IMG/VR virus record: IMGVR_UViG_3300027971_000267
Coordinates: 1 to 20,595 of that record
DNA from: a virus
Direction: 5' to 3' (one strand)
DNA length: 20,595 nucleotides
Shown one piece after another: positions 4,448 through 20,579 of this stretch; position 1 is the first letter of the stretch, and every line of letters begins with the position of its first letter. The notes below the pieces were generated by a model, which was given only the letters and a program-made list of their open reading frames with translations, had not been told where the DNA came from and ran no database searches. A program made the position numbers and the translations under genes.

Positions 4448-4594
4448 ATGGCAGTTAAAAGCAAAGGGGGAAGTGCAGCACTTAAGCGTTCGCATGAGCC
4501 AGGGCCTCCCAAGACCACTTCTATTGGGCAAGGGGCGCATTCACGCCCTCGCCGCCGAGGGAAGAAGCCTTCACGAGGCCAAGGGAAAGGCTAG
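4448..4594 (+). CDS. Small basic protein, 48 residues
   Basis: A short ORF running from ATG 4448 to TAG 4592-4594, in a different frame from the longer open frame that starts near 4380. The peptide starts MAVKSKGGSAALKRS and ends RRRGKKPSRGQGKG, with a GPPKTT segment in the middle. It has many Lys/Arg and Gly residues and almost no acidic ones. I recall very similar small basic proteins (MAVKSK..., GPPKTT, RGQGK ending) in cyanophage genomes. That memory, together with its place between a gene end and a perfect terminator, is why I prefer this frame. Function is unknown; the composition would suit nucleic-acid binding or a minor virion component. It is intrinsically disordered by appearance. 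Confidence 0.7.
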   Translation: MAVKSKGGSAALKRSHEPGPPKTTSIGQGAHSRPRRRGKKPSRGQGKG

Positions 4595-4617
4595 GCGTTG
4601 ACAGTGAGTTGGACAAG

Positions 4618-4645
4618 GGCTAGCCTATAGGCTGGCCTTTTTTTT
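4618..4645 (+). terminator. Rho-independent terminator closing the first tail operon
   Basis: An 8-bp stem (GGCTAGCC pairing with GGCTGGCC, one T-G wobble) with a TATA loop is followed directly by eight T residues. It follows the small basic protein gene by 23 bases. The start codon of the next gene lies only three bases beyond the T tract. Confidence 0.9.
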
Positions 4646-4648
4646 GCC

Positions 4649-4924
4649 ATGACTGCCTTTGTTGATTCTTATTCCTTTTCCCATCGCTTCTCTTCCACGG
4701 AAAGCCTTCCTGGGTTTTGTAACTACGAAGAAGTGACGCATCAATGTCAAAATGCAAATGCAACTGCCTTGGTGCGTTCTTTCGCTCATTTTCTAACTGG
4801 ATGTGGGTTTCCACCGTCTTCTGTATATGACGCAATGGAAAGCATTGGATCAGAGTATAATGAAGCATACATGGGCAGGATAATTTGCGATGGGGCAAAT
4901 CAAGAGGCAGGGGGAACAGTTTGA
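4649..4924 (+). CDS. Conserved hypothetical phage protein, 91 residues
   Basis: The ATG at 4649 lies three bases after the terminator's T tract, so the transcript must come through the terminator or be nearly leaderless. No Shine-Dalgarno sequence is possible apart from the stem itself. The protein has an aromatic N-terminus, Cys at about 24 and 33, and a central VRSFAHFLTGCGF...SSVYDAMESI helix pair that I associate with small cyanophage proteins of unknown function. The last 35 bases overlap the start of the 408-residue structural gene. An internal start is possible but none has a better ribosome binding site. Function unknown. Confidence 0.6.
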   Translation: MTAFVDSYSFSHRFSSTESLPGFCNYEEVTHQCQNANATALVRSFAHFLTGCGFPPSSVYDAMESIGSEYNEAYMGRIICDGANQEAGGTV

Positions 4925-13671: not shown

Positions 13672-14256
13672 TCAGACTGCAGCTAGTTGCACCTTAGCGC
13701 CTTGCTGTTGATAGTTGCCTTCATAAGCTTGCCCAACTTCTTCAATGCTAAAAAGAATAAGCTGAGCGATGCCTTCATTGGCATAGAGCTTAATTGGAAA
13801 TGGCGTTGGATTGATAAGGCACATGGTCAAGTAGCCAGACCAGCCAGGTTCAATGGGAAGAATGTTGGCAATCAAGCCACAACGACCATACGTAGACTTG
13901 CCTTCGCATAAGGCAAATACATTAGTTGGCATGGAAATCAGCTCAAGACTAGTACCAAGGCCATGGCTATAAGGAGGCAAGAGAAAAGCACAAGAGCCAT
14001 CGTTGTACTCAATAAGTTCAGCAGATTTCGGCTGCGCTTGGAAGTCTTTTGCATCAAGAGCGCAAGGCGATGAATCCTCATTGCTTTCAAAAATCAAAAA
14101 TTCAATGGAGGAAAGACGAATGTCGTAGCCTGCCTGTGAAAGACCAAATGAAATGGCCTTGGTGCCATTGTCAAGCGTACGTTGCTTTGAACCAACGTAA
14201 GGAAGAAACAGGTCGTTTTCAGCCAACTTGCTGATTTGCTTGTCGTTGAGCAACAT
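13672..14256 (-). CDS. dCTP deaminase / dUTPase family protein
   Basis: A 194-residue protein with the Dcd layout: GLSQAGYDIRL (about residues 38-48), LCEGKSTYGRCGLIANI with Ser121 and Arg125, IEPGWSGYLTMCLIN (135-149), and ANEGIAQLILF (159-169). It finishes in YQQQGAKVQLA. The family converts dCTP to dUTP or hydrolyses dUTP, feeding dTMP synthesis with ThyX. Aligned by eye to the E. coli enzyme, where the segment reads GWxGxIVLEF, the catalytic Glu138 position is Cys146 here. Arg110 is replaced by Lys120. It may therefore be a non-deaminating dUTPase, a regulator, or an inactive binder. The start lies just behind a terminator and has no Shine-Dalgarno sequence. Confidence 0.8.
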   Translation of the reverse strand: MLLNDKQISKLAENDLFLPYVGSKQRTLDNGTKAISFGLSQAGYDIRLSSIEFLIFESNEDSSPCALDAKDFQAQPKSAELIEYNDGSCAFLLPPYSHGLGTSLELISMPTNVFALCEGKSTYGRCGLIANILPIEPGWSGYLTMCLINPTPFPIKLYANEGIAQLILFSIEEVGQAYEGNYQQQGAKVQLAAV

Positions 14257-14260
14257 GGTT

Positions 14261-14291
14261 AAAAAAGGAAAAAAGGGGCGGTTAGCGCCCC
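14261..14291 (-). terminator. Rho-independent terminator between the small OB-like gene and the Dcd-like gene
   Basis: On the minus strand a 6-bp stem (GGGGCG / CGCCCC) with a 5-base loop is followed by TTTTTT, CC and TTTTTT. It lies 17 bases after the stop of the upstream gene. The Dcd-like ATG at 14256 begins four bases beyond the second T tract. Confidence 0.85.
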
Positions 14292-19391: not shown

Positions 19392-19399
19392 ATACTGCG

Positions 19400-19431
19400 G
19401 GACTAGCTTATGATTAAAGCTAGTCCTTTTT
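19400..19431 (+). terminator. Rho-independent terminator after the primase-helicase gene
   Basis: A perfect 10-bp stem (GGACTAGCTT / AAGCTAGTCC) with a 7-base loop is followed by TTTTT. It begins nine bases after the primase stop. The next plus-strand ATG is at 19441, nine bases after the T tract. Confidence 0.9.
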
Positions 19432-19596: not shown

Positions 19597-20013
19597 TTAC
19601 CGCCCCCAGCGGGCGAGGACGGTGCGAGCGATCTCTTCCACGTCTCCACTTGTGGGACCGTCGTGAAAGGAATACAGCTCTTGCCATAGCTGGTGCAGTT
19701 CGTCGGTAGTCGGCCCCACCGGCTCCGGCTCGGCCAGGCGCTCCAAAAGGTCGGCGGCGCGGGCAAGCTGCTTGAAACGCGGGGCATCAGACTCCCATAG
19801 CCGGGCAATTTCGCGCAGCCAGTAGGCCAGGAACGCCACCTCCCCATCGGCGGGGTGCTCCGGCTCGGCCAGGGCGGCGCGGGCGCGGTCCACTAAGGCA
19901 CAACGAATTGAATCAAGAATAACTGAGCAGCCTTGGTGATACATCAATGATTTTTGCGTGTTTTCAAGCTCGTGAACAAGCTCAGTGCACAGGGCGCGAT
20001 AGTCAGTGATCAT
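19597..20013 (-). CDS. Hypothetical phage protein with a sharp GC boundary
   Basis: 138 residues from ATG 20013, overlapping the upstream gene's stop by four bases. The start MITDYRALCTELVHELENTQ and the later LVDRARAALAEPEHP, FLAYWLREIARLWESDAPRF, ARAADLLERLAEPE and ARTVLARWGR elements are of a type I associate with cyanophage and picocyanobacterial small proteins of unknown function. It is predicted helical throughout. The DNA for the C-terminal two thirds (about 19621-19890) is very GC-rich, while the N-terminal part drops to near 40 percent G+C. That break indicates a recombined or modular gene. No catalytic motif is visible. Confidence 0.7.
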   Translation of the reverse strand: MITDYRALCTELVHELENTQKSLMYHQGCSVILDSIRCALVDRARAALAEPEHPADGEVAFLAYWLREIARLWESDAPRFKQLARAADLLERLAEPEPVGPTTDELHQLWQELYSFHDGPTSGDVEEIARTVLARWGR

Positions 20014-20285
20014 GGTTGGGCCTCCAGCTCAGCGGCGATGGCGAGGAGTCGATTGCGGATCATTTTTGCAAAGAGTCGATAGCGGATCAATCCCTGACGA
20101 TCCTTATGCCTCTTGGTCCCGCTACTGACTGGGCCAAGAGTAAAAAACTCTGGCATTGCCTGATCCGCAGCGGCGCGAAGGGCGGCGGCGATGCATTGCC
20201 GATAAACGGGATCGTTGATCACGTTGGGGTTGCCCATCGTGCCTGCGATCATCACCGCCTGCGCGGCGGGGGAAAGTTCAGTCAT
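20010..20285 (-). CDS. LSPAAQAV-family small protein, copy 1
   Basis: 91 residues from ATG 20285, overlapping the upstream gene by four bases and the downstream gene by four. It opens with MTELSPAAQAVMIAGTMG, then VYRQCIAAALRAAADQAMPE, a basic middle (KRHKDRQGLIRYRLFAK), and a closing LLAIAAELEAQP. The N-terminal, central and C-terminal blocks recur in the next gene upstream, so the two are tandem paralogues. I recall the 'LSPAAQAVxDA...ALRAAADQ...IAAELE' layout from cyanophage genomes. Function unknown; a small helical bundle is likely. Confidence 0.7.
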   Translation of the reverse strand: MTELSPAAQAVMIAGTMGNPNVINDPVYRQCIAAALRAAADQAMPEFFTLGPVSSGTKRHKDRQGLIRYRLFAKMIRNRLLAIAAELEAQP

Positions 20286-20488
20286 TGGTAAGCCTCCAGC
20301 TCGGCGGCGATAGTGAGTAGCTTTGTGGCGTCCGCGATGGAATACAGAAACATCTTGGATTGGTAGCAGCTCATTTGATCAGCAGCGGCACGGAGAACGG
20401 CGGCGATGCCTGATTGATGGCTTTTTGAGTCTCCCCACCAAGCATCCATCACCGCTTGCGCGGCAGGGGAAAGGCTTTGTTTGCTCAT
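20282..20488 (-). CDS. LSPAAQAV-family small protein, copy 2
   Basis: 68 residues from ATG 20488; an in-frame ATG at 20512 would overlap the 28-codon ORF upstream. It begins MSKQSLSPAAQAVMDAWWG, continues with GIAAVLRAAADQMSCYQSK, and ends in ADATKLLTIAAELEAYQ, matching copy 1 in all three blocks but lacking most of its basic middle. The DNA encoding the shared N-terminus is nearly identical in the two genes, so the duplication or exchange appears recent. Function unknown. Confidence 0.65.
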   Translation of the reverse strand: MSKQSLSPAAQAVMDAWWGDSKSHQSGIAAVLRAAADQMSCYQSKMFLYSIADATKLLTIAAELEAYQ

Positions 20489-20492
20489 GGTT

Positions 20493-20579
20493 TTAGTTAG
20501 GACCTTGCCCATCGTACCCGACCATCAAGATGATGGCCACTGTGCCAATCAAGAAATTGTCCATTTTAATTTGTGGCAT
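20493..20579 (-). CDS. 28-residue membrane peptide ORF
   Basis: From ATG 20579-20577 to TAA 20495-20493. The peptide is MPQIKMDNFLIGTVAIILMV followed by GYDGQGPN, a single hydrophobic helix with a short polar tail. A second ATG at codon 6 would give 23 residues. The stop is four bases before ATG 20488 of the LSPAAQAV gene, consistent with operon spacing. Very short, so chance cannot be ruled out. No family is known to me. Confidence 0.35.
   Translation of the reverse strand: MPQIKMDNFLIGTVAIILMVGYDGQGPN

Follow-up and report, generated by a model that had tools for sequence, protein, structure and literature searches.

Closest described systems

In T4 I-TevI and segB, and in Aeh1 mobE, a late promoter is positioned so that late transcripts miss an inhibitory hairpin (PMC2988022). 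S. elongatus is described as lacking Rho and as having a -10 element of the form Ta-aaT and no clear -35 consensus (PMC3219970). Polymerase recycling, in which reinitiation takes place near terminators, has been described in vitro for E. coli polymerase, with terminators and promoters that are separate (PMC11347151).

The window considered here is the whole stretch of DNA that was analysed, a virus contig of 20,595 bases. Its primase/helicase shares 58% identity with the counterpart in Synechococcus phage S-CBS4, and the S-CBS4 gene order thymidylate synthase, dcd, small gene, exo is similar in the contig. These two features suggest that the contig is probably an S-CBS4-like cyanophage. The virus group that carries the element described below appears to infect Synechococcus-type cyanobacteria.

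A hairpin and promoter-like boxes at one junction

The element (site 1) occupies positions 4598–4648, and the features at and around it are the following.

4448–4594, plus strand: small basic ORF of 48 amino acids, ending in RGQGKG and a stop codon, upstream of the element
4598–4603, plus strand: putative -35 box, TTGACA
4615–4640, plus strand: putative terminator hairpin, indicated by fold energy and by compensatory pairing among relatives
4621–4626, plus strand: putative -10 box, TAGCCT, in the left arm and first loop base of the hairpin
4633–4648, plus strand: predicted leader, from a probable start near 4633
4638–4645, plus strand: T8 tract of the putative terminator, which is also the bulk of the predicted leader
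4649–4924, plus strand: gene for a 91-amino acid protein, whose family aligns from the start codon
4890–6116, plus strand: virion structural protein, phrog_1645 (PHROG E-value 1.7e-93)

The hairpin consists of a stem, AAGGGCTAGCC/GGCTGGCCTTT, in which 4615–4625 pair with 4630–4640 around the loop TATA (4626–4629). The T8 tract comes next, then GCC, and then ATG 4649. The predicted RNA fold has an energy of -17.7 kcal/mol (z = -3.4), and only one of 200 shuffled sequences was equally stable. A G+C-rich RNA hairpin with an immediate U tract, as in an intrinsic (Rho-independent) terminator, is therefore present at this site. The start codon itself is backed by the N-termini of divergent homologues, which align there. 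The first-pass annotation had described a hairpin and T8 tract set directly against this ATG, and the fold and a direct reading of stem, T8, GCC and ATG bear this out. It had also held that the arrangement left no room for a promoter. However, TTGACA, a 17-nt spacer and TAGCCT stand ahead of ATG 4649 and overlap the hairpin, and the hairpin loop opens with the final T of the -10 box. The -10 box agrees with TATAAT only at TA and the last T, which counts against reading it as part of a promoter.

Conservation among related phages

The motif was first noticed in the upstream DNA of ten relatives, by an exact-pattern search and in contexts from 13 genomes; there it takes the form TTGAC[AG]-N17-TAGNNT ahead of genes of the 4649 family. 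A profile built from nine homologues of the 91-amino acid gene yielded 80 loci, of which 77 have sufficient upstream DNA and represent 59 distinct elements. The sequence TTGA[CT]-N16-18-TANNNT occurs at all 77 of these loci (59 distinct elements) and in ~0.3% of shuffled sequences. The strict form, beginning with TTGAC[AG], is found in 57 of the 59 distinct elements versus 0.1% of shuffles. The spacer is 17 nt long in 52 elements, 16 in six and 18 in one, and the distance from the -10 box to the start codon is 21–27 nt. Conserved -35 and -10 boxes spaced 16–18 nt apart before a gene, as in a sigma70-type promoter, are thus observed. In an alignment of 42 elements the only columns without variation are TTGAC, TA...T and, within the start codon, TG, although the elements were extracted with the motif itself, so this invariance is partly by construction and the informative point is that no locus fails. 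The sequences are also akin to one another, falling into 15 clusters at 70% identity, 13 of which show the strict motif. When this junction is compared among related phages, as the first-pass annotation had proposed, the site-1 layout recurs, with the motif at every readable locus. Since S. elongatus has no clear -35 consensus (PMC3219970), a fixed TTGAC is notable in a phage of such hosts.

On the minus strands at G002:C1:55779 and G003:C1:41506 there is also a conserved TTGACA-N17-TATATT/TATGCT, with a Shine-Dalgarno-like sequence and a GTG start after it. It is probably a standard promoter of this type at another place in these phage genomes.

Of the 59 distinct elements, some 55 have an RNA hairpin on the sense strand that overlaps the -10 box and whose pairing is retained through compensatory and G-U changes. 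Among 31 in-register relatives, 96.1% of cells are paired compared with 87.7% in shuffled sequences, and both sides have changed in 21 cells compared with 4.4 in shuffles. Pairing in the same relatives falls to 53–63% when the partners are slid by one column. The 42-sequence alignment is concordant (84.5% paired versus 75.6%). Folding is better on the sense than on the antisense strand in 55 of the 59 elements, and G-U pairs make up 124 of 649 pairs. In 38 elements NCG follows the final T of the -10 box, which gives a UNCG-type loop in most of them. We also considered whether the U-G wobble of the stem keeps an antisense -10 box from arising; this idea is unsupported, as antisense TAGNNT persists in 28 of the 59 elements.

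Neither the hairpin nor the T tract is universal. In L187, L191 and L195 the -10 box is not covered by any clear hairpin, and the hairpin in L241 is weak and unusual. The promoter motif is kept in all four, which indicates that the promoter varies less than the hairpin does. A U-rich tract lies immediately 3' of the stem in most relatives, and the T tract is poor in a few. The existence of a few relatives with a poor T tract or no clear hairpin suggests that termination is not always needed.

Genomic context of the element

The same kind of small basic ORF precedes 54 of the 59 elements, and its stop codon mostly touches or overlaps the -35 box. In the five elements with a different upstream gene, the promoter motif is still there. 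The small ORF in the window (MAVKSKGG...RGQGKG) has hundreds of relatives on viral contigs, in varied neighbourhoods. A search with this ORF gave 68 distinct loci, 25 with the 91-amino acid gene and 43 without. The element lies near the stop codon of the small ORF in 24 of the 25 loci with the gene versus one of the 43 without it, and in the remaining gene-bearing locus (L312) it is present beyond an insertion. The element goes with the downstream gene and not with the upstream one. In L310, after position 1341, the element is found and no gene of the 91-amino acid family was detected downstream; this copy may be what remains after the gene was lost.

Searching with a covariance model built on the element gave a single copy per genome in ten gene-bearing genomes, with scores from 62.7 to 29.7 bits, and the runner-up match scores 14.8 bits. 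A scan of 13 genomes for more terminator-promoter overlaps gave one match elsewhere (G016), which is taken as chance. The hairpin choice in that scan was greedy and lost several true elements, and the covariance search is the better count. Rfam and tRNA scans gave no matches. Every relative that could be examined has the arrangement, always at this same junction.

The protein encoded behind the element has no match in Pfam or PHROG. Its structure model is of moderate quality (mean pLDDT 78), with an uncharacterised protein of an uncultured phage as the top structural match, and searches of genome_contigs and phage isolates did not find the gene family. The phrog_1645 gene is probably on the same transcript.

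Two further hairpins in the window

Hairpins also stand before two other start codons.

14275–14291, minus strand: simple terminator hairpin ahead of dcd (ATG 14256), kept in relatives and in S-CBS4 (site 2)
19399–19427, plus strand: hairpin before ORF 19441, with TATGAT (19409–19414) in its loop, an inverted repeat found at the same junction in relatives (site 3)

The first-pass annotation had taken these sites and site 1 for a single recurring arrangement. All three hairpins exist, but the full set of -35 and -10 boxes is confined to site 1; site 3 has TATGAT without a good -35 box, and site 2 has neither.

The site-2 hairpin (14291–14275) is located 18 nt from ATG 14256. The hairpin and its T tract, between an ssb-like gene and dcd, are conserved down to S-CBS4. 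Many relatives have GNRA or UUCG loops, and the hairpin lies 0–20 nt ahead of the dcd start. No promoter-like match was found within 87 nt. The simplest reading of these sequences is a partial terminator in the ssb-dcd series.

The site-3 hairpin is located 13 nt from ATG 19441. At the corresponding junction between primase and the next gene in many relatives (L075, L079, L086, L089, L104 and L108), TATAAT or TATGAT occurs in an inverted repeat immediately before the start codon, mostly with no T tract and no good -35 box. Direct copies of ATTATGRCTGG recur at this junction in relatives. Site 3 may be related in kind to site 1, with a weaker case. A search for relatives of ORF 19441 found none. 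Further along, the adjacent minus-strand ORFs at 20010–20285 and 20282–20512 resemble tandem paralogues (LSPAAQAVM...AAADQ...AAELEA).

Placement of a hairpin against a start codon is probably regulatory. Of the explanations offered in the first-pass annotation, expression set by termination efficiency is plausible, mainly at site 2, and we found nothing that calls for antitermination or RNA processing.

Possible function of the site-1 element

The boxes, their spacing, the hairpin and the position of the start codon are all conserved, and it seems fairly likely that 4598–4648 is a composite terminator-promoter, with promoter activity, start site, termination and effect on translation as predicted from the sequence. 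Polymerase coming in from the structural genes upstream would make the hairpin and U8 and would mostly terminate just before ATG 4649. Polymerase initiating at TTGACA-N17-TAGCCT would start at ~4633, 7 nt past the -10 box and within the right arm, a position compatible with the -10-to-start distance in the 59 elements. A start in the right arm would give a new mRNA with no hairpin and only a short U-rich leader of ~16 nt. Such an mRNA should be translatable; the mean predicted leader stability is -17.3 kcal/mol for read-through RNA versus -3.3 kcal/mol from the predicted start. Any read-through RNA that escaped termination would have the hairpin ~8 nt ahead of its start codon, and its translation should be poor. 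None of the 59 leaders contains a Shine-Dalgarno sequence. The 91-amino acid gene, and probably the phrog_1645 gene as well, would in this way be insulated from upstream transcription and dependent on their own promoter. By analogy with recycling, a polymerase terminated at the T tract might stay on the DNA and restart at the overlapping promoter, linking the structural operon upstream with the one that follows and resetting the 5' end of the mRNA, although we regard such a relay as unlikely.

Three other explanations can be considered. A translational switch like that of T4, in which the hairpin only blocks translation of read-through RNA and does not terminate transcription, would accommodate the relatives with a poor T tract, and there is precedent in the hairpin-free late transcripts from the late promoters of T4 I-TevI and segB and Aeh1 mobE (PMC2988022). 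However, most relatives have a U-rich tract right behind the stem, and the hairpin pairs with neither the start codon nor a Shine-Dalgarno sequence, which makes this explanation improbable.

Alternatively, as in the first-pass annotation, the element could be a leaky terminator within an operon, with the 91-amino acid gene expressed by read-through only and its level set by an antitermination factor or by how efficiently transcription terminates. The hairpin and T tract do look terminator-like, and partial intergenic terminators in S. elongatus are described as setting stoichiometry (PMC3219970). However, this explanation does not account for the constantly spaced -35 and -10 boxes at all 77 loci, for their persistence where the hairpin has been lost, or for an association that follows the downstream gene and not the upstream one. 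It therefore appears quite improbable.

Finally, an inverted repeat over a -10 box is a common operator position, the site-1 repeat is so placed, and the site-3 relatives carry inverted repeats round TATAAT mostly without a T tract, but a DNA palindrome bound by a repressor or activator is highly improbable here, as the arms at site 1 vary with compensation and keep no single operator sequence, and the G-U pairs, the strand-specific folding and the fit of 38 of 59 loops to UNCG disfavour it. The composite terminator-promoter is the preferred reading.

Comparison with known systems

We found no description of this exact terminator-promoter overlap in the open-access literature, which is weak evidence of novelty. 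Approximately 50 bases in these uncultured cyanophages are apparently under two constraints, one as a promoter in the DNA and one as a terminator in the RNA. The 59 natural variants form a test series for the sharing of sequence by terminator and promoter, for reinitiation fed by termination, and for the insulation of adjacent late operons. The locus is also a caution, as reasoning that there is no room for a promoter breaks down once the promoter sits within the terminator.

The nearest described mechanism is the T4-type promoter within a hairpin (PMC2988022), and site 1 may act in a comparable way. The likeness would lie in the gene-proximal promoter and in a hairpin present only on read-through transcripts, which is here predicted from sequence. 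In the T4-type systems a Shine-Dalgarno sequence is sequestered by the hairpin, and transcription starts from a T4 middle or late promoter, whereas site 1 has a U tract, a putative sigma70-like promoter and no Shine-Dalgarno sequence. The site-1 hairpin has no such sequence to sequester in any of the 59 leaders, and its stem stops before the last bases of the leader. With nothing sequestered and a terminator-like hairpin, the site-1 element is not classed as a T4-type member. The S. elongatus phycocyanin operon resembles the present loci in having a terminator directly between serial genes, a comparison that probably fits the hairpin at 14256. The available part of its description contains no embedded promoter (PMC3219970), whereas site 1 has a predicted one. 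In recycling polymerase (PMC11347151) the likeness is that termination and a nearby promoter may couple; site 1 differs in that the two share the same bases.
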